In this document: positions 7,286 through 26,171 of the stretch, piece by piece
Numbering within the stretch: the first letter of the stretch is position 1
How the letters are laid out: the number at the start of each line of letters is the position of its first letter
Source of the DNA: Planotetraspora silvatica
GTDB lineage: Bacteria > Actinomycetota > Actinomycetes > Streptosporangiales > Streptosporangiaceae
Direction of reading: 5' to 3'
DNA: 64,000 bases
Assembly: GCF_016863315.1 (NCBI RefSeq)
Contig: NZ_BOOQ01000041.1
Coordinates: forward strand, 1 to 64,000
Program-made: the position numbers and the translations under genes
The notes under the pieces: generated by a model
The model's input: only the letters and a program-made list of their open reading frames with translations
What the model was told of the DNA's origin: nothing
The model's database searches: none

Positions 7286-7702
7286 TCAGCGAGCCTTGTG
7301 GATGAGAGACGTCGTCAGGGCGGCGGCGGCGGGGATGAGGGTGAGAGCCACCAGGAACACCACGCCGACCGGCCACAGGCCCTGGTCGTCCTCCCCGAGG
7401 TCCCTGATGATGGTGATCGCGAAATATATGAAGAACGGAGCGGCGGCGAGCAGGCCCCACAGGATCCCCGTCCGGGGGACGAACCATCCGGCCAGGCCGG
7501 CCAGGACCCCTAACCCCGCGAACGCGAGCAGCAGGTAGGGCGAGTCGAAGAAGTCGCGGGGGGCGTCGGGGGCGATTTCGGGGGCGGTGAGGACACAGAC
7601 GGCCACCGCGACGGACCCCGCGATGACGAGGCCGAGCGCCCACACGAGGGCGGAACGGGGCATGGGACTCCTCGGCGCGAATACCTGCTGCTCAAGACTC
7701 AT
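7286..7702 (-). CDS. Small integral membrane protein, unknown function
   Basis: 138 residues with about four hydrophobic segments (roughly 18-38, 55-73, 80-98 and 110-130) and a short, positively charged end. I do not recognise the family. An internal Met14 (7663) could be the real start. It lies between the convergent methyltransferase gene and the SARP gene, on the same strand as the latter. Confidence 0.6.
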   Translation of the reverse strand: MSLEQQVFAPRSPMPRSALVWALGLVIAGSVAVAVCVLTAPEIAPDAPRDFFDSPYLLLAFAGLGVLAGLAGWFVPRTGILWGLLAAAPFFIYFAITIIRDLGEDDQGLWPVGVVFLVALTLIPAAAALTTSLIHKAR

Positions 7703-7744: not shown

Positions 7745-10700
7745 TCATGATTGAGTAGATTGCGATGTCGGATCGGATGCCGTCCCGGTGAGCGCGTCCA
7801 CTTCCCGGCGTGCCACGGCAGCCGCCGAGAGGTCGCCCGCCGCGGTGTAGGCGTCGGCGAGGCTGCTCAGCGCGCCCGCGAGGAAGTCCTGCCAGCCACG
7901 AGTGCGCCAGAGCCGCACAGACTCCTCCAGATGGGTGACCGCCTCGCCGAACCTGCCCTCTGCCAGGTCGACGTCGCCGAGCACCCAGAGCGCGTCGGCC
8001 CTGTGATGGGCCAGGTGATGGGAGCGGCTCAGCGCCTCGGCGGCCTCCGCCGCGGCCCTGGCCCGGGGGTCGCGGGCCACGCCGTAGAGCTTGGCCAGCG
8101 CCACCAGGCCCATCGCCTCCAGCAGCGGGTCGCGGAACTGGCGGTAGATGGCCAGCGCCTTGACCAGATATTCGAGACCGGCCTCGAACTCTCTCGCATG
8201 GGCGTGCGCGAGGCCGAGGAACTGCAGCGTCGTGGCCTCGAAGCGCGGGTTGCCCAGCTTCTCGGCCAGCGGCAGGGCTTTCAGCAGGTGGACGATGGCC
8301 ATCCTGATCTCTCTGGGGCCGTACGTCACGGCCATGCAGACGTGTGCCCTGGCCTGGCCGCTCAGGTGGCCGCTGCCTTCCGCCAGGCGCAGCGCGATCT
8401 GCCCTGACCGAAGGCCCTGCGCCATGTCGCCCCTGGCCGCCTCCCCCCAGGCGCGCAGCACGTAGGCGTCGGCCAGGCCGCGATCCTCGCCCAACTCGGT
8501 GAACATGGCGATCAGCTGCTCGGCCCCGTCGTACTGCGCGGCCATGGCCCCGCCGGTCTCCATCCACGTGGTGGCGTGCGTGAGCCCTCGAAGGATCATC
8601 GCTTCGCCGAGCCTGTTGCCCGCCTTACGGCATGCCTCCAGGACGCGCTCGTGCAGGGCGCGCCAGTCGTCGAACTGGCCGCTTACATCGAAGTAGCGTT
8701 CCACGCAGCAGGCCGTATCCCATGCGACCTCGGTCAAGCCCATCGAGCAGGCTTGGCGGATCGACGCGATCAGCGCCGTCCGCTCGGTGTCGAACCACGC
8801 CATGGGGTCCCGCTCGGCCAAACCCGCCCAAGCGGCTCCGTCGGGGGAGTTCCAGCGAGGAGCGGTGCCGTGGATGATGGCGGAGGAGGTGCCCTGCACC
8901 CTCTCCGTGGCACGTTCTGCCAGCGTGAGCCAGGCCCCGAAAGCCCTGCCCAGTGCCGCGGAGACGGCCTCCGGCTCGTCTTCGAGTCCGTTGCGCTCGC
9001 GGGCGTACAGGCGGACGAGGTCGTGGAAGCGGTAGCGGGGCTGCCCCACCAGGTCCGTTCCGCTGACGAGCACGAGCTGCGTGTCCACCAGAGCCTCGAC
9101 CAGCTCCTCTCCCGCGGCCACCGGCAGGTCGAGCAGCGCCCCGGCGACCCAGCCGGCGAATTCGGGCACGTCCAGCGAGCCGAGCAGCCGGAACGCCCTG
9201 CGCGTGACGTGGTCGAGACCGACGTAGCTGAGCGCCAGGCTGGCCCTGACCGCGAGATCGCCGGTGGCGAACTGGTCGAGGCGCCGCCGTTCGTCGGTGA
9301 GTTGCCCGGCCAGGCGGGTCAGCGACCAGTGCGGCCGCGCGGCGAGGCGGGCCCCCGCCACCCGGACGGCGAGCGGGATGTGGTCCGACAGCCGGACGAT
9401 CTCGGCCGCCGCATCCGGCTCCGCCGCCACCCGGCCGGCCCCCGCGATCCTGGAGAGCAGTTGTACGGCCTGCTCGGGCAGGAGCACGGAGAGCTCGATC
9501 AGATTCGCGCCGGACAGCCCGTTCAGCCGGGACCTGCTGGTGACGATGACCGCGCAGCCGGGCGTGCCGGGGAGCAGCGGGCGGACCTGCTGCTCCGAGG
9601 CGGCGTTGTCGAGCACGATGAGCATCCGGCGTCCCGCCAGCAGGCTCCGGAAGAACGCGGCCCGTTCCTCCGTGGTCTCCGGCAGGGTGGAGCGCGGCGC
9701 GCCGAGCGCGGTGAGGAAGGCCGCGAGCACCTGGGAGGGGTCCGCGAGGGAGGCCTCGGCGCCGTGCAGGTTCGCATGGAGCTGGCCGTCGGGATAATGC
9801 CGCGCGACCTGATGGGCGGCGTGTACGGCGAGCGTGGTCTTGCCGACGCCGCCCATCCCCGTGATGACGCACACACGCACGGGCCCGGGGCCCGGGGGAG
9901 GCTCCTTGCCGAGGAGGTCCGTCAGCTGGGCCAGGTGGTCGTCCCTGCCGGTGAAGTCGGAGATGTCCGTCGGAAGCTGGGCGGGGGTGACATCACCTGA
10001 CGAGACCGTGGAGGGGTCGACGGGGAGTGTGCCGGTGAGGATGGCCTGGTGCAGGTGGCGGAGCTCGGCACCGGGGTCCAGGCCGAGTTCGGCGGCGAAC
10101 ACCCGGCGGGCGTCCTGGTAGGTGGCCAGCGCCTCCGCCTGGCGTCCCGACCTGGCCAGGGCGAGCATGAGCTGCATGCGCGGCCGCTCTCTCAGCGGGT
10201 GCTCGGCGACGAGCCCGATCAGCTCGGCGATGCACGCGGCATGCATCCCGCGAGCCAGGTCCGCCTCGATCCGGTTCTCGAGCGCGGTGAGCCGTTCCTC
10301 TTCGAGGCGGTGGGCGTGCTCGCTGAGCCCGGTGGTGAGGTTCAGCCCCGCGTACGCGGGACCACGCCACAGTTCCAGCGACTCCCTGAGCAGCGCGGCG
10401 GCCCGCTCGTGGTCTCCGGCGGCGAGGGCGGTCCCGCCCTGTTCGGCGAGGGTCTCGAACCGGCCTGCGTCCAACTCGCCCGGATGGATGGACAGAACGT
10501 AACCGGTGCTGGTGCGCGTGATCCGGTCAGGGCCCAGCGTCCTGCGGAGTTGGTGCACGTAGAGCCGGAGGTTGTCCGTGGCGGTGCGTGGCGGCGACTG
10601 CCCCCACAGCGCCTCAATGAGGGTGGAAGGGGGCACGGCGCGTCCCATATGGCAGATGAGTTCGGCGAGCAGGGTGCGCTGCTTCCCCGCACCGAGGGGC

Positions 10701-10753
10701 AGAGGCTGGGCTTCGGCTGCGACGCGAAGCGGTCCTAGGACGGCGAACTCCAT
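7745..10753 (-). CDS. SARP-family transcriptional regulator with NB-ARC and TPR domains (AfsR-like)
   Basis: About 1002 residues. Residues 1-95 form an OmpR-like winged helix (MEFAVLGPLR, LLAELICHMG, IEALWG, LRLYVHQLRRTLG). Residues 95-245 form the bacterial transcriptional activation domain. A P-loop NTPase follows, with MGGVGKTT around K305 and the Walker B MLIVLDNA. TPR-like helices fill the C-terminal 350 residues. The ATG at 10753 is chosen because SARPs begin this way and GGGAG precedes it; in-frame starts further upstream are unlikely. Such proteins activate secondary-metabolite or developmental genes, but no biosynthetic cluster is adjacent. It lies downstream of the RHS gene with a strong hairpin between. 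Confidence 0.93.
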   Translation of the reverse strand: MEFAVLGPLRVAAEAQPLPLGAGKQRTLLAELICHMGRAVPPSTLIEALWGQSPPRTATDNLRLYVHQLRRTLGPDRITRTSTGYVLSIHPGELDAGRFETLAEQGGTALAAGDHERAAALLRESLELWRGPAYAGLNLTTGLSEHAHRLEEERLTALENRIEADLARGMHAACIAELIGLVAEHPLRERPRMQLMLALARSGRQAEALATYQDARRVFAAELGLDPGAELRHLHQAILTGTLPVDPSTVSSGDVTPAQLPTDISDFTGRDDHLAQLTDLLGKEPPPGPGPVRVCVITGMGGVGKTTLAVHAAHQVARHYPDGQLHANLHGAEASLADPSQVLAAFLTALGAPRSTLPETTEERAAFFRSLLAGRRMLIVLDNAASEQQVRPLLPGTPGCAVIVTSRSRLNGLSGANLIELSVLLPEQAVQLLSRIAGAGRVAAEPDAAAEIVRLSDHIPLAVRVAGARLAARPHWSLTRLAGQLTDERRRLDQFATGDLAVRASLALSYVGLDHVTRRAFRLLGSLDVPEFAGWVAGALLDLPVAAGEELVEALVDTQLVLVSGTDLVGQPRYRFHDLVRLYARERNGLEDEPEAVSAALGRAFGAWLTLAERATERVQGTSSAIIHGTAPRWNSPDGAAWAGLAERDPMAWFDTERTALIASIRQACSMGLTEVAWDTACCVERYFDVSGQFDDWRALHERVLEACRKAGNRLGEAMILRGLTHATTWMETGGAMAAQYDGAEQLIAMFTELGEDRGLADAYVLRAWGEAARGDMAQGLRSGQIALRLAEGSGHLSGQARAHVCMAVTYGPREIRMAIVHLLKALPLAEKLGNPRFEATTLQFLGLAHAHAREFEAGLEYLVKALAIYRQFRDPLLEAMGLVALAKLYGVARDPRARAAAEAAEALSRSHHLAHHRADALWVLGDVDLAEGRFGEAVTHLEESVRLWRTRGWQDFLAGALSSLADAYTAAGDLSAAAVARREVDALTGTASDPTSQSTQS

Positions 10754-10860
10754 CGTGCTCCCGGACAGAACGATCACGCACAAACAAGATCGAAGCCGCC
10801 TTAATATGCACGATCGTTTTACTCCCGTCAACACTGGAGTCGGGCCGGGCCACCTGTGCG

Positions 10861-10891
10861 CCGGCGGGAGCCGTCCTGCGGCTCCCGCCGG
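10861..10891. terminator. Strong hairpin between the RHS and SARP genes
   Basis: A perfect 13-bp stem (CCGGCGGGAGCCG and its complement) with a 5-base loop lies 34 bp beyond the RHS stop codon. It probably terminates the RHS transcript (minus strand). No T-run is obvious, as is common in high-GC actinomycetes. Confidence 0.75.
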
Positions 10892-10924: not shown

Positions 10925-13900
10925 CTAGCCGATGTAGTGCACCGCGAGGTAGTACTTGTAGGCGATGCCCCTGCAGGTCCCCTTCCAGAAGTAGTGCGAG
11001 CAGACGCCGTAGTAGAGGACGTAGTAGAAGACGTTGTCGACCTCGCCCTTGCTGCGGACGTATCCCATGTTGCGCAGGGCCAGTCCGTAGTCGTGCATCA
11101 TGCACGCCTGCCGGAAGTCGTACCCGAGTGGCTTGTCGGGGGAATGCGTGCAGTAGTCGTACTTGATTCCGCGGATCCACCATCCCGCCGGGGTCTTCGT
11201 CCAGTAGACCCAGCGCCAGCTGCCGTGATACCAGGCGTAGTTGACGCCACAGTGGCTGAACGCGAAGTCCCAGAAGTTCGAGCACCAGTACCACTTCTTG
11301 CCGTCCAGGTCGGCGTTGGAGGTGGGCGACTGGCCCGCGTAGTCGTAGGCGTTGGCGCTGCCGCCCGCCACCGGGTCGGTCTGGAGGAACCGTCCCAGCT
11401 TGGGCTGGTAGAGCCGGACACCCATGAGCATGGTGCCGTCAGGGGTGTCGGCGGCCCGCTCGGCCGCACCGTGCCAGCCGTACCTCGTCGTGGGCTGACC
11501 CGCGCGCGGGTTGCCGAACTCGTCGAAGTCCAGCGCCAGCGGGACTCCGCCGGCCAGGCTGTACACCACGTTGATGTCGTCGTGCAGGTTGGTGAGTTGC
11601 AGCTGCACGTCACCCGTCGCGGACGTCACCGCCGCCAGGCCACCCGAGATCGAGTGGACGTTCCTGGTCACGGCTCCTGATGCGGTGTTCTCCACCACCC
11701 ACGCGGGCGTGTCGTCATCGGCGTCGAAGTGGTCGACCCGCGTTCCGACGTTGTTCCAGGCGCCGCCGGACAGCTGTGCGACCACGGTGGTGCTGCGGCG
11801 CAGTTGCGGGTCGAGCGTGTAGGACTGCCGCACCGAGCCGGAGGTCATCGACTTGACCAGGTCGGTGTTGTAGTACTCCGTCGCCAGCCCCGAAGGAGTG
11901 GCCGTGGTACGCCCGTAGGCGTCGTACACGTAGCCGGAGTCGGCCAGCCGGTCCCCGCCGTCGTAGACGTGGGTCTCGGTGACCGCACCCGAGCCGTCGC
12001 AGCGGCTGCTGGTCAGCGCGGTGCGGTTGGAGTCGGCGTCGTACCCGTAGGCCCGTCGAGCGCAGGTCCCGCTCACGGTGTCGTCCACCGAGCTGATCCT
12101 GCCCAGCTTGTCATAGCCGATCTGCTGGGCCGACAGTCCGTTGTGCGAGACCTGCTGGCCGTGGATCGACCAGGTCACCGAGTCGTCGACCAGCTTCACG
12201 CCGGCGGCGGTCTGGTAGCCGCGCCAGGTCGGCGCGCCTGACGGGTCCCTGGTGACGCTGTAGGAGACGCCGCCGGGAAGGTTCTCGTGGTTGACGCCGC
12301 CGTCCACGTCGTAGGTGGCGGTGAACGCGCCCGCGATCGAGTCGGTCATCGAGGTGAGCACGCCCCGGGGGTCGGCCCCGGTGTCGTAGACGTAGGTCAC
12401 CGTGGACGGTGCGCCGTCCGTCTTCTTGGTCACCCGGTCGAGCGCGTCGTACTCGACCTTGGTCACACCGCCGTCGGCGTCGGTGTACGACACCTGGCGT
12501 CCCAGCACGTCGTACTCCCGGGTGATCGCCTTTCCGTCGGGTGTGCCGGTCTTCAGGGTGCGGCCGGCCGAGTCGTAGGTCGTGGTCGCCGTGGGCACCG
12601 CAGTGCCGACGCCACCGGTGACCGCGGTCTCCACGGTCCGTCCCGCCGCGTCGTACTCGGTGGTCGTGGTCCTGGTGACACCGTTCGCGGTCTCCGTGAC
12701 CGCGGACACGAGGCCGCCCGGCTCGTAGGTGTAGACCTTGGCGACCAGTTCGGAGGGGTTGGAGCCGCTGTTGGAGATCGTGGTCTTCGCCTTCGTACGG
12801 CACAGCAGCCCGGCCCAATCGGCCCTGCCGCCACAGGTTCCGGTGCCGTCGGCGGTGTAGTACTCGGTGGTCGTCGTGCCGGCGTCGTCTCCCGACGACT
12901 TCGGCGTGGTGGTGCGGATCACCCTGCCTTCCGTGTCATAGCCGGTCGTCTTGGTGATCGCCAGGCCGCCGGGGTCGTCGACGGTCTTGGTGACGTTGCC
13001 GGAGGTCCAGTCGTAGTAGGTCTTGCCGACCCGGAGATCGGCGTCCGCCGTGCTGCCGGGCACCCAGGCGCCGGTGGTGACGGTGGTGACCAGGTTCGCC
13101 ACCTTGGCGTCCGCCGGCCGTCCCTCGTCGAAGGTGTTGACCGTGTGCTTCCTGGCGGGGACCTGAACGCCGTTCAGCTGGATCAGGTGCAGCGGCCCGG
13201 ACGAGGATTCCTCACGCTGCCCGTCGGCGCTGTACGTGGTCTCGTCGGAGAGCAGCCGGGCCCGCTCCGCGGTCGGGGTGTTGAGCAGGCCGAGCCGGGT
13301 CAGATCGTTCGCCGCGTTCGGCCCCTGACCCAGGGCGAGAGCCCGGTTGCCCGCGGAGAGCGAGAGCACGGTGTTGCCCTGCGCGTCGTACTGGCTGGTG
13401 GACACGCCACCACCCGGTTCCGCGCGGTTGACCACCTGTCCGGACGCGTTGAGGTAGGTGATCGTGGCACGGCCGTAGTCGGATCCGGCCAGGCCGCCGC
13501 GCCCCGTGTTGTTCGCGGGTACCTGGTCGGCCGGGAAGATCGCGGTCGCGTCGACGGGCGCGTCGCTCTGACCCCAGGCCGCCGTGGTCGCCCCGGCCAG
13601 GTTGTACGGCGAACCGCTCCCGCTGATCGGGACGTCGTACACGACCGAGGCGGTCGCCGTGCCGTTGGTCTCGCTCAGGGTTCCCGGACGGAGCGTCGGC
13701 CTGGACACGCTGAGCAGCATCCCGTCGGACGCGGTGTCGGAGTTGCCCGCCTTGCCGTAGGTGAAGGTCCACGGCAGCTCGCCGGGCGGGGTGTACCGGT
13801 TCACCCGGCCCCCGAGGTCGTAGTCGTAGCGGGTCTTGACCTCAGGAGTGTTGGGGTTCCACTGCTCGCGGAGGCGGCCCAGGTCGTCGTAGCGGTACTC

Positions 13901-16900
13901 GGCCAGACCCTGCGGAGCGCTTGCCCCGCCCTCCCAGAGGCTGATCTGCTTGACCTGGCCCGCCACGTCGCCGAGTTGCGCGCCCGCGGTCGTCGTGGCG
14001 GCGTAGGTGAACTTGATCAGCCGGCAGCCCTTGGGCAGGTTGGTGAGAACGTCCACGTCGCAGTCGGTCTGCGAGGAGACCGACCACGACGGGGCAATGA
14101 TCTTGAGTGGTCTGGCCAGCGGCTTGCCGTCGGAGCCGGTCACCGACTCCCAGACGAAAACCGTGCTGCCCTTGCCGCTCGCCGGGTAGACGGCGCGGAC
14201 CAGGTAGATCGTCCCTGAGGGGTCGACCTTGGCGAAGACCGTCCGCTCCGCGGAGTTGACGTCGGACAGGGTGTAGCGGTCCGTCGCCGAGTCGAAGGTC
14301 AGCGCCAGATTGGCGGCGTCGGGCTGGGGGGTGAAGGAGCCGTCGGTGTTCTTGGTGAACGCCACGGAGGCGCCGTCGCCGCTGAGCTCGACCGAGGTGG
14401 CCGAGGTGGGGCGGAGCTGTGCGAAGGTGCCCTGCCCCGTCGTGGCGAGTCCACCCGCGGTCCACTCGGTGCCGAAGATGGCCGCGACTCCCGGCAGCGA
14501 CGAGCCCTTGCGTGGGTCGCGTGAGGAGAAGGAGCGCATGAGCCCGACGCCGAACACGCTTGCGTCCGTGGCCGCCATCTTGAAGTCACCGGTGAGCATG
14601 TTGACCAGGCCCGGCCCGACGGGCTGGGTGGTCGCGCCCTCCGCGTCGCGGTCGACGATCAGGTCGACGGACTGGGACGCCGCCGTTCCGGTCGAGGTCG
14701 CGAACTCGGCACGCACCTGGATCACGCCGTCGTCGGCGAGCGTGTGCGTGGTGTCCCAGACCAGGGCGGGGGAGACGCCCGACGCCATCGCCACCGGCCA
14801 GGTGATCGCCGCGCCGTCCGCCTTCTTCCGGACGTCCGCGGCGGGAACCTGGTGCCAGGTGTCGGTCTCACCGCGCCGGTAGGTGAAGGTGACCGCGGTC
14901 AGTCCCGGGCTGCCCGTCGCGGCCAGCACGGTCCGGTGAGCGCTCGACTGCCCGTCCTTCGGGGAGGTGACGGCCGATGTGCCGGCGTTGAAGGCGTACG
15001 TGGTGGCGGGCGACAGGTTGCCCGCCTTGTCCTTCACCCACGCCTTCAGGGTGTGCGGGCCGTCGCTGCCGGGGGTCCAGTTGAGCGCGTACGGCGCGCC
15101 GGAGTTCGCCACGGACTGCTGGGCGCCGCCGTCGAAGGACCAGAGCACCGCCGACACGTCGGTGCCGCCGGGCGTGATGGTGAACTTGCCCGCCTGGCCG
15201 GATCCCTTCGCCCACCCGTCCTCTGGGTAGTCGTCGGAGGAGACGGCGGGAGCGGGCGGAGGAGTGGCGTCCACGGTGAAGGTGAACCAACTCGACCACG
15301 CGCTGTAGTCGGTGCCGTCGAAGGAACGGACCCGCCAGTGATAGGCGGTGTTGGCGAGAGGCGTGCCCACCTTCCACGATCCGGTGGCGCCGGAGGAGAT
15401 GTTCGAGACGGAGCCGCCGGTGACCTTGGTCACGTGGTCGGGAGTCCACACCTCGAAGTCGGCCCGCTGCGCCTGCGCGTCCGTGTCGCTGACCTTGGCG
15501 GACAGCGTCGGCTGGGGAGCGCTTACCAGGGCGGGACTGGCACACGTGGTGCATGGCGCGATCGCCAGGCTCGCGGGCGTCGCCGGGATCGTGTTGTAGG
15601 TGATGGAGATGCTCGGGTTGTTCTCGAACCGCTTCCAGTAGTAGTTGTCCGTCTCGCTGCCGGCCTTGACCATGAACGTGATGGACGTGCCGCCGGCGGT
15701 CACGGTGCTCTGCAGGGCGCTGGTCACGTCCCAGCCGACGACGGCCGCGGGGCAGGTCGAAGGGCCGCCGAGCCCGCTGGACGACCAGCCGTAGGCGACG
15801 TTCTTCGCGCCGATGGACAGGTTGGAGGCGGGCTGGTTGTTCCAGTTGGTGGAGGAGCCCACCGCGGCGGTTCTGTGCAGCTCGACGTTCCTGGCGGAGC
15901 AGGACCAGGCCCAGGTCTCCTTGATGTTGAACGTCGCGGAGATGATGTGCTTGCCCGTGCCCATCCCCGAGAAGCTCATGTTGAAGAACGAGCGCCGCTT
16001 GGCCGAGCCGGCGCTACTGGTGCCGGCCGTGGCGTCATTGGTTGAGTTGTAGTAGGCGCTGGTCGGATAGGCCGAGTCGACGTACGTCCAGCCCGACTTG
16101 GCGGCGGTGAAGCTCGGGTCGATCGTCACGGGGAAGACGGTGGCGGGGTCGGTGAGCAGGGCCGCGTCGGGGGTGACCTTCAGGGCGCCGGCCGAAAGCC
16201 GCACGTCCATCTTGCTGCGCTTACCCGTCGGCGCGCCGACGGCCGAGGTGGCGGGGTTGCGCGTCATCGCCTTTTCCGCGGTGGCGTCCCACATCTCCGC
16301 GGCCGAGGTGGTGAACACCGGGTCGTCCTTGGCGTTCACGATCGCGACGTTGCCGTGCTCGTCGGCCTTGATCCTGCCCTTCTTCAGGGAGGTGGCGAAC
16401 GTCAGCGCCTTCAGCCGGGAATCGGCGGCCGCTTGGCGGGACTTGACCACGAGCTTCTCGGCGAACCCGTCGACATCCGCGGTCAGCACCAGGTCGACGC
16501 CGGGAAGCACCTCGGGGTAGGTGGCGGTCGCGCCGTTCAGCACCGGCTTGGGCAGAGCGCCGAGTGGCGAGTCCAGAGAGAACTCGGTGCCCTTCTCGGA
16601 TGCGCGCACCAGTGGGCCCTGACCGCCGCCGGAGAAGCTGTAGGAGACGGACGAGGCCTTCGGAGCGATCGACCCGTCCGGGTTCGCGACCAGCGTCGCG
16701 TCCGCGGCGGCCCACTCATCGCCACGTTTCACCCGTACGGGGCGGTAGCGGTGCTCCTGAGTCACCGTGCCGTCGGGGTTGACGAAGTACTCGTCGGTCT
16801 CCGAGGTGAGTGACGCCACCTTGATCCGTTTGTCGCAGACCGCGGCGGCCAGCCTGGCGGAGATCTCGGTCGGCATCTCGTCGGGACAGGTCGTGGCCGG

Positions 16901-17020
16901 CGCCTGGGCCTTGGCCGGGACCGGCACCGCCCTCGCTGGGACCGGCACCACGGCAGTGGACACCAGCACCAGGGCTATGAGGGGCGGTAACGCGGTCAGC
17001 CGCCTTGATTTCTTCAACAT
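10925..17020 (-). CDS. Secreted RHS/YD-repeat protein with C-terminal prokaryotic phospholipase A2 domain
   Basis: 2031 residues. Residues 1-31 are a signal peptide ending A-R-A. A DNRLRE-like domain follows (about 290-450, from SGWTYVDSAYPTS to VGWDVTSAL), then FN3/Ig-like modules (about 500-780). YD repeats such as EYDAAGRTV and YDVLGRQVSY fill about 1000-1850, and the RHS core sits just before residue 1907 (RLYQPKLGRFLQTDPV). Residues 1909-2031 match secreted prokaryotic phospholipase A2: a Cys1957 / Cys1973 pair, ACMMHDYG with His1976-Asp1977, a second Asp at 1995, Cys2007 and Cys2016, and a terminal KYYLAVHYIG. Spacings and length (about 122) fit the Streptomyces violaceoruber enzyme. 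The prediction is a surface toxin or lipase delivered by an RHS shell. The start follows GGAGG. I see no immunity gene beside it. Confidence 0.9.
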   Translation of the reverse strand: MLKKSRRLTALPPLIALVLVSTAVVPVPARAVPVPAKAQAPATTCPDEMPTEISARLAAAVCDKRIKVASLTSETDEYFVNPDGTVTQEHRYRPVRVKRGDEWAAADATLVANPDGSIAPKASSVSYSFSGGGQGPLVRASEKGTEFSLDSPLGALPKPVLNGATATYPEVLPGVDLVLTADVDGFAEKLVVKSRQAAADSRLKALTFATSLKKGRIKADEHGNVAIVNAKDDPVFTTSAAEMWDATAEKAMTRNPATSAVGAPTGKRSKMDVRLSAGALKVTPDAALLTDPATVFPVTIDPSFTAAKSGWTYVDSAYPTSAYYNSTNDATAGTSSAGSAKRRSFFNMSFSGMGTGKHIISATFNIKETWAWSCSARNVELHRTAAVGSSTNWNNQPASNLSIGAKNVAYGWSSSGLGGPSTCPAAVVGWDVTSALQSTVTAGGTSITFMVKAGSETDNYYWKRFENNPSISITYNTIPATPASLAIAPCTTCASPALVSAPQPTLSAKVSDTDAQAQRADFEVWTPDHVTKVTGGSVSNISSGATGSWKVGTPLANTAYHWRVRSFDGTDYSAWSSWFTFTVDATPPPAPAVSSDDYPEDGWAKGSGQAGKFTITPGGTDVSAVLWSFDGGAQQSVANSGAPYALNWTPGSDGPHTLKAWVKDKAGNLSPATTYAFNAGTSAVTSPKDGQSSAHRTVLAATGSPGLTAVTFTYRRGETDTWHQVPAADVRKKADGAAITWPVAMASGVSPALVWDTTHTLADDGVIQVRAEFATSTGTAASQSVDLIVDRDAEGATTQPVGPGLVNMLTGDFKMAATDASVFGVGLMRSFSSRDPRKGSSLPGVAAIFGTEWTAGGLATTGQGTFAQLRPTSATSVELSGDGASVAFTKNTDGSFTPQPDAANLALTFDSATDRYTLSDVNSAERTVFAKVDPSGTIYLVRAVYPASGKGSTVFVWESVTGSDGKPLARPLKIIAPSWSVSSQTDCDVDVLTNLPKGCRLIKFTYAATTTAGAQLGDVAGQVKQISLWEGGASAPQGLAEYRYDDLGRLREQWNPNTPEVKTRYDYDLGGRVNRYTPPGELPWTFTYGKAGNSDTASDGMLLSVSRPTLRPGTLSETNGTATASVVYDVPISGSGSPYNLAGATTAAWGQSDAPVDATAIFPADQVPANNTGRGGLAGSDYGRATITYLNASGQVVNRAEPGGGVSTSQYDAQGNTVLSLSAGNRALALGQGPNAANDLTRLGLLNTPTAERARLLSDETTYSADGQREESSSGPLHLIQLNGVQVPARKHTVNTFDEGRPADAKVANLVTTVTTGAWVPGSTADADLRVGKTYYDWTSGNVTKTVDDPGGLAITKTTGYDTEGRVIRTTTPKSSGDDAGTTTTEYYTADGTGTCGGRADWAGLLCRTKAKTTISNSGSNPSELVAKVYTYEPGGLVSAVTETANGVTRTTTTEYDAAGRTVETAVTGGVGTAVPTATTTYDSAGRTLKTGTPDGKAITREYDVLGRQVSYTDADGGVTKVEYDALDRVTKKTDGAPSTVTYVYDTGADPRGVLTSMTDSIAGAFTATYDVDGGVNHENLPGGVSYSVTRDPSGAPTWRGYQTAAGVKLVDDSVTWSIHGQQVSHNGLSAQQIGYDKLGRISSVDDTVSGTCARRAYGYDADSNRTALTSSRCDGSGAVTETHVYDGGDRLADSGYVYDAYGRTTATPSGLATEYYNTDLVKSMTSGSVRQSYTLDPQLRRSTTVVAQLSGGAWNNVGTRVDHFDADDDTPAWVVENTASGAVTRNVHSISGGLAAVTSATGDVQLQLTNLHDDINVVYSLAGGVPLALDFDEFGNPRAGQPTTRYGWHGAAERAADTPDGTMLMGVRLYQPKLGRFLQTDPVAGGSANAYDYAGQSPTSNADLDGKKWYWCSNFWDFAFSHCGVNYAWYHGSWRWVYWTKTPAGWWIRGIKYDYCTHSPDKPLGYDFRQACMMHDYGLALRNMGYVRSKGEVDNVFYYVLYYGVCSHYFWKGTCRGIAYKYYLAVHYIG

Positions 17021-17085
17021 CCTCTACCTCCGCACAACGTGAATACGCAGTCGGAAATCATGTTGATCAACGGCTGTATAGGTGC

Positions 17086-17120
17086 CGTATAGATGGCGTT
17101 AGGCCTATAGATGCGTTAGG
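17086..17120. repeat. Imperfect direct repeat in the RHS/hydroxyproline intergenic region
   Basis: CGTATAGATGGCGTTAGG is followed at once by CCTATAGATGCGTTAGG. These abutting near-identical units lie 66-100 bp upstream of the RHS start codon, where a direct-repeat-binding activator could act. Role unknown. Confidence 0.45.
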
Positions 17121-17273: not shown

Positions 17274-18179
17274 ATGACCACCTCCGCCAGGCCATGGCGC
17301 GGCGTCCACGTCGCGTCGGCGCTGCCCTTCAACGAGGACCTCTCCGTCGACCACACCGCGTTCGCCGAGCACGTGCGGTTCCTCGCCGCGGGCGGCTGCG
17401 ACGGGGTGGTGCCCAACGGTTCCCTGGGCGAATACCAGACGCTCACCCCGGAGGAACGGGCACGCGTCGTCGAGACGGCCGTCGAGGCCGCCCCCGCCGG
17501 GTTCGGCGTGATGCCGGGCGTCGCCGCGTACGGCGCGCTGGAGTCCCGCCGCTGGGCCGAGCAGGCCGCCGCCGCCGGGGCCACGTCCGTCCTTCTGCTC
17601 CCGCCGAACTCCTACCGCGCCGGGAGGGAGGCCGTCGTCGAGCACTACCGAGAGGTGGCCAAGGCCGGACTGCCGATCGTCGCGTACAACAACCCCATCG
17701 ACACCAAGGTCGACCTGACGCCGGGACTGCTCGCCGAACTCTTCCACGAGGGCCTGATCGTCGCCGTCAAGGAGTTCACCGGCGACGTCCGCAGGGCGTA
17801 CGAGATCGCCGAACTGGCGCCCGGCCTCGACGTGCTGGTCGGCGCCGACGACGTGCTGCTCGAGTTGGGCATCGCCGGGGCCGTCGGCTGGATCGCCGGC
17901 TACCCGAACGCGTTCCCCGAGGCCACGTCCGCGCTGTACCGGCTGGTCACCTCCGACGACGCCGCGGACATCGCCACCGCGCTGCCGATCTACCGTGACC
18001 TGCACCCACTGCTGCGCTGGGACTCCAAGACCGAGTTCGTTCAGTCGATCAAATTGTCGATGGACGTCGCCGGCCGCAAGGGCGGTCCCTGCCGCCCGCC
18101 GCGCCTGCCGCTCCCGCCGGAACTGGTCGCCCGCATCATTGCCGACACCGAAGCCGTCCTCGCGAAGGGCTACAAGTGA
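17274..18179 (+). CDS. DapA-family aldolase, probable 1-pyrroline-4-hydroxy-2-carboxylate deaminase
   Basis: 301 residues forming a TIM barrel of the dihydrodipicolinate synthase family. The Schiff-base lysine is predicted at Lys166 (VAVKEFTGD), the catalytic tyrosine at Tyr138 (VAYNNP), and the substrate loop is GSLGEYQTL. In trans-4-hydroxyproline catabolism this family deaminates and dehydrates pyrroline-4-hydroxy-2-carboxylate to 2-oxoglutarate semialdehyde. The next genes encode the epimerase and the dehydrogenase of the same route, which is why I prefer this role over a lysine-biosynthesis DapA. The start follows GGAGAG. The stop overlaps the next GTG (GTGA). Confidence 0.85.
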   Translation: MTTSARPWRGVHVASALPFNEDLSVDHTAFAEHVRFLAAGGCDGVVPNGSLGEYQTLTPEERARVVETAVEAAPAGFGVMPGVAAYGALESRRWAEQAAAAGATSVLLLPPNSYRAGREAVVEHYREVAKAGLPIVAYNNPIDTKVDLTPGLLAELFHEGLIVAVKEFTGDVRRAYEIAELAPGLDVLVGADDVLLELGIAGAVGWIAGYPNAFPEATSALYRLVTSDDAADIATALPIYRDLHPLLRWDSKTEFVQSIKLSMDVAGRKGGPCRPPRLPLPPELVARIIADTEAVLAKGYK

Positions 18180-19177
18180 GATCACGCCGCACCTTCCACG
18201 CCGTCGAGTCCCACACCGAGGGCATGCCCACGCGGGTCATCGTCGGCGGCATGGGGACGATTCCCGGCGAGACCATGGCCGAGCGCAGGCTGTGGTTCAT
18301 GGACAACAGCGACGACGTCCGCACGCTGCTCATGTACGAACCGCGCGGGCACGCCGCGATGAGCGGCGCGATCCTGCAGCCGCCCACGCGTCCCGACGCC
18401 GACTACGGCGTGCTGTTCATCGAGGTCTCCGGCCTGCTGCCGATGTGCGGTCACGGCACGATCGGGGTCGCGACGGTCCTCGTCGAGACCGGGATGGTGC
18501 CCGTCGTCGAGCCGGTGACCACGATCAGGCTCGACACTCCCGCCGGGCTCGTCGTCGCGTCCGTCGCGGTCGAGGACGGCGCGGCGACGTCGGTCACCAT
18601 CCAGAACGTGCCGTCGTTCTCGTACGCGCTGGACCGGAAGGTCGAGGTCCCCGGCTTCGGCGAGGTCGGCTACGACATGGCGTTCGGGGGGAACTTCTAC
18701 GCGGTCGTCGAGCTGTCGGACCTGGGCCTGCCCTTCGACCGATCCCGCGCCGGCGACCTGCTGGCCGCCGGATTGAAGATCATGGACGCGGTGAACGAGC
18801 ACGACCGGCCCGTCCACCCGGAGCGCGACGACATCAACGGCTGCCATCACGTCTATCTGAAGGCACCCGGCTCGACCGCCGAGTTGTCGCGGCACGCCAT
18901 GGCCATCCACCCCGGCTGGTTCGACCGTTCACCGTGCGGCACGGGCACGAGCGCCCGGATGGCCCAGCTCCACGCGCGCGGAGAGCTGGGGATCGGTGCG
19001 GACTTCGTGAACGAGTCGTTCATCGGCACGCGCTTCACGGGACGACTGCTCGGCGAGACCACGGTCGGGTCGGTTCCCGCGGTGCTGCCGTCGATCACCG
19101 GCCGGGCATGGGTCACCGGAACCTCGCAGTTCCACCTCGACCCCACCGACCCGTTCCCCGCCGGTTTCCTGCTGTGA
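18176..19177 (+). CDS. 4-hydroxyproline 2-epimerase (proline racemase family)
   Basis: 333 residues. Proline racemase-family enzymes use two cysteines; both are present, Cys91 in MCGHGT and Cys254 in PCGTGT, with FHAVESHTEGMPTR at the N-terminus. The enzyme would convert trans-4-hydroxy-L-proline to cis-4-hydroxy-D-proline, feeding the dehydrogenase encoded downstream. A proline racemase activity is possible from family alone, but the neighbours favour hydroxyproline. The start GTG overlaps the previous stop codon by four bases, indicating translational coupling. Confidence 0.88.
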   Translation: MRSRRTFHAVESHTEGMPTRVIVGGMGTIPGETMAERRLWFMDNSDDVRTLLMYEPRGHAAMSGAILQPPTRPDADYGVLFIEVSGLLPMCGHGTIGVATVLVETGMVPVVEPVTTIRLDTPAGLVVASVAVEDGAATSVTIQNVPSFSYALDRKVEVPGFGEVGYDMAFGGNFYAVVELSDLGLPFDRSRAGDLLAAGLKIMDAVNEHDRPVHPERDDINGCHHVYLKAPGSTAELSRHAMAIHPGWFDRSPCGTGTSARMAQLHARGELGIGADFVNESFIGTRFTGRLLGETTVGSVPAVLPSITGRAWVTGTSQFHLDPTDPFPAGFLL

Positions 19178-22975: not shown

Positions 22976-23893
22976 ATGCCGAGTATGAACCGCATCTGGA
23001 GCTCTGCCGAGCAGATCACTGAGCATGCGCTCAGGCAGCAGCGCCAGTTCGCCGCCGATGCGTCGCACGAACTGCGCACCCCCCTCGCCGCCGTCCGTGT
23101 CGAGCTGGAGGCGGCGCTGCTGTATCCGGCGGACGCGTGCGAGGCGATCAGCGGGGCGCTTGGGGCCCTCAACAGGCTGGAGACGATAGTGGCCGACCTG
23201 CTGCTGCTGGCGGACATCGGGACCGTGCCGCCGGCCGCCGGAGATGAGGTGGATCTGGGGCGACTGGTCACGGGCGAACTCCGGTGCCGCTCGGGACGAC
23301 GGCCGATCCGGCTCCACCGGGAGGCGGGCGTGACCGTCGAGGGGTCGCGCCCCCTGCTGTCCCGGCTGGTGGCGAGCCTGCTGGACAACGCGGAACGGCA
23401 CAGCGCGACGATGGTCGACGTGGAGGTCCGCCGGGACGGCGAGCGAGCCCTGTTGTCGGTGGGCAACGACGGCGAGCCCGTGCCCGAGGAGGACCGTGAG
23501 CGGATGTTCGACCTGTTCTCCCGGAGGGACACGGCCAGGAGTAGAAGCGACGGCGGCCCCGGCCTCGGCCTGGCCATCGTCCGCGAGGTCGTCGAGGCGC
23601 ACGGCGGAGACATCCTCGTCCAGGACGCCGAACCCGGCGTCCGGTTCGTCGTCCGCCTCCCGCTCGCGTCGTCTGCCCAGACGCCCCCGGGGGAGCATTG
23701 GCCGTACGGACGCCCGCTGGACGCGGTCGCGCCGAATTCGCCGCTCACCTCATCCAGGGAAGTCAGAGAAGTGCGGCACCTCCGGGGACAGCGGGGCGCG
23801 GCGGGTGAACCGGCGCACGATCCCTCTATGGCCTTGCTTGCTCAGCTGCCTTTCGAGCCGTCATCCAGGCCGCGATCTGGGTGCGCGACCTGA
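22976..23893 (+). CDS. Sensor histidine kinase, N-terminally truncated and orphan
   Basis: About 305 residues. The phospho-acceptor box is at the very start (FAADASHELRTPLAA, His31), then an N box (LLDNAERHS), a G1-type box (VGNDGEPVPEEDRERMFDLF) and a G2-type box (GGPGLGLAIVREVVEAHGG). No membrane segment or sensor domain precedes the H box, and no response regulator is adjacent, so the 5' part has probably been lost. Starting at ATG 22976 is a guess. After RFVVRLPL, where the family normally ends, about 65 unrelated residues follow and overlap the convergent LuxR gene by 68 bp. That suggests a decayed 3' end as well. Confidence 0.6.
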   Translation: MPSMNRIWSSAEQITEHALRQQRQFAADASHELRTPLAAVRVELEAALLYPADACEAISGALGALNRLETIVADLLLLADIGTVPPAAGDEVDLGRLVTGELRCRSGRRPIRLHREAGVTVEGSRPLLSRLVASLLDNAERHSATMVDVEVRRDGERALLSVGNDGEPVPEEDRERMFDLFSRRDTARSRSDGGPGLGLAIVREVVEAHGGDILVQDAEPGVRFVVRLPLASSAQTPPGEHWPYGRPLDAVAPNSPLTSSREVREVRHLRGQRGAAGEPAHDPSMALLAQLPFEPSSRPRSGCAT

Positions 23894-26171
23894 ATCCGAG
23901 CTTGGTCAAGATGTGCTTGACATGGCTCTCCGTGGTGCGCTGGGCGATGACGAGCGCGGACGAGATCTCCTTGTTGCCCAATCCCCGGGCGACCAGCTCC
24001 GCGACCTCGTGCTCTCGCCTGGTCAGCGGCGACGGCTTCTCCGCCGCCTTCTTCTCCTCGGCCTTCTTCTCCGCGTCAGGCCCGATGCCGAGCGCCTCCG
24101 CGGTCGCGTTCTCGACCGTCAGCCCGCCGCCCTGCCGTACGGCGCCGGCGAAGGCCTCGTCGCCCAGCTTCTCCCGCAGGGTGGCGACGCACTGCTCGTG
24201 GAACTCGGTGTGCTGGCTCCAGCGGGTGAAGATGCCGGCCGTGCGGCGCACCTCGTCCGCGGCGCCGAGCATGCGAGCCGCGCCGATGAGGTGACCCTCG
24301 CTCGCCAGGATCCAGCCGAGCGCCCTCATGCCGATCGTGATGATCAGCCGGTCGTCGAAGTCGCGCCCGACCACCAGGCTTTCGCGTAACAGCGAGATCG
24401 CCCGCGCGTTGTCGCCGTTCTGCCAGGCACCGACGGCGACGATGATCAGCACCCAGGAGCGGATCCAGCTCTCCCCGTGCGCCTCGGACAATGCGAGACT
24501 CCGCTCGATCAGCTCGGCGGCCCGCCGCCGGTCGCCGAGGTAGTGGGCGGCCGTTCCGAGGGAGAGTAGGGCGCACACCAGACGGAAGGTGTTGCCCGCG
24601 GCGGCGTTCCTGGTCGCGGCATCCTCGAGCAGGACGGCCGCCCGCCCGTAGTCGCCCCTGATGTTCGCCGCCATACCCGAGATCAGCGAGGCCAGGCCCA
24701 TGGCCTGCGAGTGATCCAGCTCGCGGGCCAGCACCCGGCCCTCCTCGACGAGAAGCTCGGCCGCCGCGATGTCACCCTGGGTCAAGGCGGCGTCGGCCTC
24801 GGCGCACAGGGCCTCCGCTCGCGTGGCGGTGGGCCCCGGAGCAGCCTCCAGCATGCGGTCGAGCCAGTGACGGCCCTCGCTGTAGAACGCGTTGGGCTTC
24901 CAGTGGGTCTCGTACAGGCTGGTGGCGATGTGCAACCCGGTCTCCGCCTCGCCGGGCTCCTGCAGGCAGAACTCCATGGCGGCCCGCAGATGCGCGCGCT
25001 CCAGCCGCAGCCGGGTGAACCAGGAGACCTGCTGGGGGCCGAACCATTCGGCGGCCGCCTGATCGACCAGCAGCCGGTACCGGTTCCGGTGCCTCCGCAG
25101 CAGCGACCGCCGTTCGTCGGCGCCCAGCCGCAGCCGCCCGAACTCCCGGAGCGTCTCCAGCATGCGATACCGGACCTGTCCCTCGTGCTCCTCCCGCTGC
25201 AGTAGCGACTTGTCCAGCAGCGCGTCGACCAGGTCCAGCGCGTCCTGCCGCTCGATGCCGCCGCCCGTGCAGACGGATTCGACGGTCTCCAGATCGAAGT
25301 CCCCCTGGAAGATCGACAAGCGACTCCACAGCGTCTGCTCGCTGGGGGAGAGCAACTGGAAGCTCCAGTCGACCAGCGCGTGCAGGGTCCGCTGACGCGG
25401 CGCGGCCGTACGGCTGCCGCGCGTCAGGAAGCGGTAACGATCGTTGAGGTGCTCGACGAGCGTGTTCACCGACAACGCCCGCAGACGCACCGCGGCGAGT
25501 TCGATCGCCAGAGGGATGCCCTCCAGCCGACGGCACAGCTCGGCGACCGCCGCCTGGTTGTCCTGGTTCAACGAGAACTCGGGCAGCACCGCCACCGCCC
25601 GCTCCATGAACAGGGCGAGCCCGTCGTACAGTTCCGGCGCCTTCGCCGTCAGGGGCTGATCCGGGCCGGGAACGGCGAGCGGCGCCACCGGCATCCCGCG
25701 CTCGCCCGGGATGCCGAGCGACTGCCGACTTGTCGCGATGATCCGCAGTTCCGAGGCGGTCCGCAGAAGACAGTCGGCGAGCCCGGCGCAGGCGTCGCTC
25801 AGGTGCTCGCAGTTGTCGAGGACGAGCAACGTCCGCTGCGAAGACAGCAGCAGGGAAAGCCTGTCCAGTGGGCGGGTCGTGGACTCGTCGCGCAGGCCGA
25901 TGGTCGCCGCGACCGTCTCCACCACGACTTCCGGGTCGTCGAGGCCGGTCAGGTCCACCAGCCACACCGCGTCGAACGCGCGATGCTCCTCGGACGCCGC
26001 CCGAAGGGCGAGCCGCGTCTTGCCGACGCCGCCCGGCCCGGTCAGCGTCACCAGCCGCGAGACGGTCAGCAGCTGCTTGATCTCGGCGAGTTCCCGTTTC
26101 CTGCCCACGAAGCTGGTCAGGTCGGCAGGCAGGTTGCCAATCCGCTGCATATGCCGCAAACCGACCATCAC
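23826..26171 (-). CDS. LuxR-family regulator with NB-ARC-type ATPase domain
   Basis: 781 residues. The N-terminus carries the usual LPADLTSFVGR entry and a P-loop (GPGGVGKTRL, residues 45-54), with a Walker B-like segment LLVLDNCEH. A helical, TPR-like middle follows. The last 65 residues form a LuxR helix-turn-helix (LTRREHEVAELVARGLGNKEIS, then TTESHVKHILTKLG). A Lys/Glu-rich linker precedes the DNA-binding domain. This is a large ATP-dependent activator of the type abundant in actinomycetes; ligand and targets are unknown. It converges with, and overlaps, the truncated kinase gene. Confidence 0.9.
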   Translation of the reverse strand: MMVGLRHMQRIGNLPADLTSFVGRKRELAEIKQLLTVSRLVTLTGPGGVGKTRLALRAASEEHRAFDAVWLVDLTGLDDPEVVVETVAATIGLRDESTTRPLDRLSLLLSSQRTLLVLDNCEHLSDACAGLADCLLRTASELRIIATSRQSLGIPGERGMPVAPLAVPGPDQPLTAKAPELYDGLALFMERAVAVLPEFSLNQDNQAAVAELCRRLEGIPLAIELAAVRLRALSVNTLVEHLNDRYRFLTRGSRTAAPRQRTLHALVDWSFQLLSPSEQTLWSRLSIFQGDFDLETVESVCTGGGIERQDALDLVDALLDKSLLQREEHEGQVRYRMLETLREFGRLRLGADERRSLLRRHRNRYRLLVDQAAAEWFGPQQVSWFTRLRLERAHLRAAMEFCLQEPGEAETGLHIATSLYETHWKPNAFYSEGRHWLDRMLEAAPGPTATRAEALCAEADAALTQGDIAAAELLVEEGRVLARELDHSQAMGLASLISGMAANIRGDYGRAAVLLEDAATRNAAAGNTFRLVCALLSLGTAAHYLGDRRRAAELIERSLALSEAHGESWIRSWVLIIVAVGAWQNGDNARAISLLRESLVVGRDFDDRLIITIGMRALGWILASEGHLIGAARMLGAADEVRRTAGIFTRWSQHTEFHEQCVATLREKLGDEAFAGAVRQGGGLTVENATAEALGIGPDAEKKAEEKKAAEKPSPLTRREHEVAELVARGLGNKEISSALVIAQRTTESHVKHILTKLGFRSRTQIAAWMTARKAAEQARP

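Follow-up and report, generated by a model that had tools for sequence, protein, structure and literature searches.

RHS proteins that carry a phospholipase A2 (PLA2) tip are already known. The accessible part of a 2012 survey (Zhang et al., PMC3482391) lists such a tip, Tox-PLA2, with 1kp4 as fold reference, in combination with RHS repeats and the type II secretion system and with no immunity partner. The gene analysed here lies in a stretch of 64,000 nucleotides from the soil actinomycete Planotetraspora silvatica (contig NZ_BOOQ01000041.1, hereafter the window; the assembly has 117 contigs totalling 8.66 Mb) and encodes an RHS protein ending in a PLA2 domain (RHS-PLA2). The original prediction, made from the letters of the window, had left it open whether this architecture was characterised; since Tox-PLA2 with RHS repeats is listed in PMC3482391, the combination itself is not new. 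The protein belongs to a distinct RHS-PLA2 branch with a likely on-switch gene of its own. Among the matches listed in the open-access literature (subscription papers lay outside the scope), no title concerned this lineage or an RHS toxin controlled by a SARP (Streptomyces antibiotic regulatory protein).

With Tox-PLA2, as described in the accessible part of PMC3482391, the locus shares the PLA2-fold tip, the RHS repeats, the occurrence in Actinobacteria, the lack of a listed immunity partner and the motifs DxC[ST] and CxxH. It differs in lacking the full CxxHxxxYxN motif and in having a distinct aromatic-rich N-terminal region of the tip and two extra cysteines. A linked SARP, an operator and a membrane protein are found here, none of which is mentioned for Tox-PLA2 in that part of the survey. 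The secreted PLA2 of Streptomyces violaceoruber (1faz) and its relatives 7ygk, 8k1w and 4aup have the His/Asp pairs, the calcium-ligand Asp and two cysteine pairs in common with the tip, but are stand-alone secreted enzymes on a separate tree branch, whereas the tip has a further cysteine pair and leaves profile positions 1–28 unmatched. Autocleaving shells of the Rhs/WapA type, as far as described in the accessible text of PMC8636562, likewise combine an RHS shell and core with a pair of motifs that precede the tip at a spacing of 17 residues; in contrast to these, no N-terminus of the type VI secretion type was seen here, the second motif reads DLDG[KR] and not DPLGL, and 11 of 12 loci have no adjacent immunity gene. 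Finally, the large SARP AfsR (PMC10936776, accessible part) has the same DNA-binding, BTAD, NB-ARC/NOD and TPR domains as the linked regulator, and 11-bp direct repeats at the presumed target. AfsR is pleiotropic, while the presumed target here is a toxin-like RHS gene and the two-repeat core occurs once in this genome.

The PLA2 tip and its RHS shell

The gene and its parts are located as follows:
10925..17020, minus strand: RHS-PLA2 gene, ATG start, 2031 amino acids
15626..16087, minus strand: DNRLRE domain, residues 312–465 (NCBIfam NF033679, E 3.4e-18)
11300..11524, minus strand: RHS core (Rhs_assc_core), residues 1833–1907 (NCBIfam TIGR03696)
10928..11296, minus strand: PLA2 tip, residues 1909–2031, PF09056 match beginning at 1954 (Pfam, phmmer, tip conservation)
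11084..11107, minus strand: ACMMHDYG, residues 1972–1979, including His1976 and Asp1977 (translation; both invariant in 13 of 13 tips)
10861..10891, minus strand: terminator-like hairpin with a 13-bp stem and a 5-base loop, 3' of the RHS-PLA2 stop (sequence)

The protein comprises, in this order, a hydrophobic N-terminus, DNRLRE, a weak Ig-like match below the cut-off, RHS repeats (RHS_repeat, E 7.2e-16, five stretches in Pfam), the RHS core and PF09056. The predicted PLA2 ending of an RHS protein was thus found: in the Pfam search of the whole protein, PF09056 matches residues 1954–2031 with 45.5 bits (cut-off 29.4, E 1.3e-11), and the tip alone (residues 1909–2031) scores 51.1 bits (E 2.3e-13), above the curated cut-off. 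A phmmer search of the tip against PDB sequences retrieved four chains up to E 10, all of them PLA2s, with 1faz as the best (E 7.4e-10). In this alignment, Asp1955, Cys1957, Cys1973, His1976, Asp1977 and Asp1995 correspond to residues 43, 45, 61, 64, 65 and 85 of the 1faz chain; the residue numbers given earlier for the two cysteines, the His/Asp pair and Asp1995 were correct, and the pair is kept. The residues of 1faz aligned with Asp1955, His1976, Asp1977 and Asp1995 are those to which we ascribe its catalytic and calcium-binding roles. These four positions and six cysteines are invariant across the 13 tips. A chance match was rejected on the basis of this conservation and of the significant Pfam and phmmer matches.

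The tip is divergent within the PLA2 family. While DxC[ST] is present as DxCT in 13/13 tips, CxxHxxxYxN is not: its Tyr position is Tyr in ten tips and Leu in three, among them the tip of the window, and its Asn position is Leu in all. Profile positions 1–28 of PF09056 are unmatched, and the aromatic-rich N-terminal region of the tip sits in their place (28% aromatic residues in the tip as a whole; predicted model of this region with pLDDT <50 for residues 22–64). In a tree of 86 columns, with the stand-alone rows thinned by half to 27 and L086 omitted as a copy of L042, the tip clusters with other RHS tips, apart from the stand-alone PLA2 enzymes. The genome also encodes a stand-alone PLA2, which falls on the other branch; recruitment of this enzyme as the tip was therefore rejected. 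The dN/dS ratio of the tip is 0.36–0.58, compared to 0.26–0.37 for the shell (residues 1101–1908), and below 1 in all four comparisons. The tip is probably an active, divergent PLA2, and by its sequence would be a functional counterpart of Tox-PLA2; it is classed as a divergent variant because CxxHxxxYxN is lacking.

Directly before the tip, the RHS core holds two Asp motifs, the first of them DP, at a spacing of 17 residues in 12/12 proteins (Asp1882-Pro and Asp1904 in the protein of the window). Such an arrangement is described for Rhs autocleavage in the accessible part of PMC8636562. Since the second motif, DLDG[KR], deviates from DPLGL, autocleavage of the RHS core at the tip border is likely but not proven. 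The N-terminus contains one hydrophobic segment, as judged by simple hydropathy, and the protein is probably exported.

Distribution and co-evolution

Among 297 genomes of the family, PF09056 was found in at least 107, and at least 11 have a PF09056-containing open frame of 2032–2115 amino acids, with one further fragment at a contig edge. RHS-PLA2 is accordingly patchy (at least 12 of the 297). In the class, the tip alignment gave a match at E 1e-5 in 47 of 394 genomes; outside the family, the single frame above 2000 amino acids with a tip match was found in G297 (2217 amino acids).

Across the 12 full-length loci, the mean pairwise distances of shell, tip and linked regulator are equal (approx 0.27) and strongly correlated (shell-tip 0.92, shell-regulator 0.98, tip-regulator 0.90). 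The three co-evolve and therefore represent a fixed lineage; a freshly swapped cassette was rejected given the shell-tip correlation. Ten related shells, hand-picked among the matches listed and with starts taken as longest-frame guesses, are 42–51% identical over the last 408 shell residues and 32–45% over the aligned shell. None of the ten has a PLA2-like tip (L114 is almost tipless), and a Cys-x2-His-Asp motif was not seen by eye in their last 230 residues. The shell family is thus polymorphic, while this branch keeps its tip, which is constant among the orthologues. Among called open reading frames (ORFs), neither the linked regulator nor the membrane gene lies downstream of any of the ten.

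PLA2 tips are also found on other proteins. Seven proteins of 533–603 amino acids (L105–L110 and L061) have a PLA2 tip of the HDYG type, with RHS repeats in all four that were scanned with Pfam; they are too short for a closed RHS shell. Proteins of 1375–1442 amino acids with a C-terminal PLA2 (L052–L056) showed eight fibronectin-III stretches and a DUF5005 match in the two scanned (L052 and L054).

Promoter repeats and the linked regulator

Two further features flank the RHS-PLA2 gene:
17073..17102, minus strand: SARP-operator-like direct repeats, three copies at an 11-bp period, 5' of the RHS-PLA2 start (repeat scoring, conservation)
7745..10834, minus strand: large AfsR-like SARP regulator with Trans_reg_C, BTAD, NB-ARC and TPR; likely start Met28, approx 10753 (Pfam)

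At each of the 12 loci, the triple repeat upstream of RHS-PLA2 scores 12–14 of 15, which no more than 2 of 400 shuffles reached; upstream of nine of the ten control shells, the score is 6–9. For L035, the start was placed by hand. YTATAC-N5-YTATAC is exact in ten of the 12 loci, and this two-repeat core is found at a single place in the 8.66-Mb genome. In the operator-aligned loci, the repeats are conserved and the flanks variable. A longer repeat pattern gave 14 matches in the 297 genomes, nine of which precede RHS-PLA2 genes; the others are one in G266, one in G162, where the neighbour is a large SARP related at 41%, and three elsewhere. The RHS-PLA2 promoters of G062 and G202 have only a looser form of the repeats. 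Since a reversed control pattern likewise gave 14 matches, the operator argument rests on position and conservation, not on the count. The targets of SARPs contain direct repeats at a spacing of 11 or 22 bp (PMC10936776 and, for a related type, PMC5930380, accessible parts).

The regulator contains all four AfsR-like domains in Pfam. It lies downstream of RHS-PLA2 in the same orientation in 12/12 loci, directly next to it in 11. Its relatives in the 11 other loci are 56–99% identical, adjoining in ten and located behind the membrane gene in L042. A single operon from RHS-PLA2 into the regulator was rejected, since the hairpin follows the RHS-PLA2 stop in 12/12 loci and a promoter-like site precedes the regulator gene; the regulator is thus probably transcribed separately. 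It may bind the promoter repeats, and RHS-PLA2 is probably governed by this dedicated STAND-SARP. Apart from the membrane gene, the other neighbours in the window are, within the stretches fetched, common only to the two nearest relatives, among them the divergent genes of the DHDPS and proline-racemase families upstream of the RHS gene (17274–19177, plus strand).

Similar elements were noticed elsewhere. At 23826–26171 (minus strand), the window contains a second ORF with 27–28% similarity to the SARP regulator of the relatives. In L166 (position 7060; G162:C30), operator-like repeats precede a tiny ORF with a signal-like start (by eye), convergent with the large SARP that is 41% identical to the regulator of the window; this is perhaps another pair of SARP and secreted product. 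In L167 (4777–5363; G062:C33), such repeats lie 68 bases before an ORF of 172 amino acids that has a signal-like start and matches DUF5648 below the threshold.

A four-helix membrane protein

One gene further, a small membrane protein is encoded:
7286..7702, minus strand: four-helix membrane protein, tentative immunity or accessory protein; likely start 7663 (hydropathy, AlphaFold, locus comparison)

The protein and its relatives have 125–138 amino acids and four hydrophobic helices (AlphaFold pLDDT 86.6) and gave no Pfam match above the cut-off. Of the 12 loci, eight have the gene: in six it follows the regulator, in L051 it does so in inverted orientation, and in L042 it comes directly after the RHS gene. 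By genome, 8 of 12 with RHS-PLA2 have it (that of G225 on a separate contig), an association with a Fisher p of 7.9e-9 when kinship is ignored. In L095 (7000–7500; G266:C24), tblastn retrieved the regulator and the membrane gene but no RHS-PLA2 gene, and the operator is still present together with what by eye is a remnant of the leader; in L096 (G294:C11), tblastn found the membrane gene alone, RHS gene and regulator being gone. This persistence resembles that of orphan immunity genes and would also fit an unrelated membrane protein.

The claim that no immunity gene is nearby holds for the adjacent position, as 11 of 12 loci have the regulator there and the small membrane protein adjoins only in L042; it does not take account of this candidate one gene further. 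Because no immunity gene lies directly downstream, the locus is classed as RHS-toxin-like and not as a proven toxin-immunity pair. That the membrane protein confers immunity is a tentative possibility to which we give less weight than to its opposite.

Discussion

The sequence is best read as that of an exported RHS protein whose tip attacks membranes. The original interpretation stands in so far as PF09056 is significant and the His/Asp pair kept; it has to be amended in that the combination was catalogued in 2012, profile positions 1–28 are unmatched and the gene is not alone. We regard it as fairly likely that the locus encodes an RHS toxin that is exported, cleaves itself and acts outside the cell through its PLA2 tip, with a dedicated STAND-SARP as its regulator. 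In favour are the domain order, the conserved catalytic residues and cysteines, the spacing of the cleavage motifs, the repeats of operator type, the linkage of the regulator and the co-evolution. RHS-PLA2 would then be a WapA-like polymorphic toxin with a divergent, disulfide-bonded, calcium-dependent PLA2 as its tip. The STAND-type SARP would bind the 11-bp-spaced repeats and switch the gene on, and the RHS core would cut itself at the tip border after export. The freed tip would hydrolyse sn-2 ester bonds of the target membrane from outside and would thereby be toxic, most likely to competing microbes.

Several observations weigh against this reading or parts of it. Control shell L119 is flanked by a divergently oriented ORF with a SARP domain (42% over 237 residues) and has an upstream repeat score of 11 of 15 (5 of 400 shuffles as high), located at its assumed start codon. 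The membrane gene is also present in 9 of 285 genomes that lack RHS-PLA2, not counting a weak match in G125. It is absent from all four Herbidospora loci, whose fetched stretches contain no ORF of 70–299 amino acids with at least three hydrophobic segments and a GC content at third codon positions >0.7, and the four Herbidospora genomes gave no match to the protein.

The protein could instead be a physiological exoenzyme, with a shell that retains the phospholipase on the surface of the cell and a role in scavenging lipids, in the lysis of hyphae or in development, and an immunity gene would therefore be unnecessary. The fixed shell-tip pairing, the 11 of 12 loci without an adjacent immunity gene, the stand-alone PLA2 of the genome and the control of primary and secondary metabolism by AfsR, the model of this regulator type (PMC10936776, accessible part), are in line with this; the non-PLA2 endings of the ten related shells, which are polymorphic-toxin-like, and the patchy presence in the family are not, and we consider such a role somewhat unlikely. 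It is unlikely that the regulator controls something else, with the repeats serving another factor and the neighbourhood merely co-inherited. Its binding to the repeats is a prediction, it has a promoter-like site of its own and operator matches occur at four other places, but the linkage persists throughout the 12 loci, even where regulator identity falls to 56%, with other neighbours differing, the repeats are conserved against variable flanks, and one of the other operator matches adjoins a SARP related at 41%. A catalytically dead tip serving membrane or surface binding, as the divergent N-terminal region, the aromatic content and the altered Asn (13/13) and Tyr (3/13) positions might suggest, is very unlikely, given the four invariant active-site positions and six cysteines and the dN/dS below 1.

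Going beyond the toxin reading, the locus might form a self-contained sensor-effector module, in which an NLR-like STAND regulator acts through one promoter to release a single exported phospholipase shell upon a cue sensed by its TPR domain (competitor, phage or membrane damage), and in which the four-helix protein would be the first immunity candidate for a toxin with a PLA2 tip; we put this forward as a speculative and rather doubtful extension. In this lineage, candidates for a regulator, an operator and a protective protein lie together at one locus. It thereby becomes testable what switches such a toxin on, what keeps its producer alive and whether an extracellular lipase tip can act from outside, with no need to enter the target cell.
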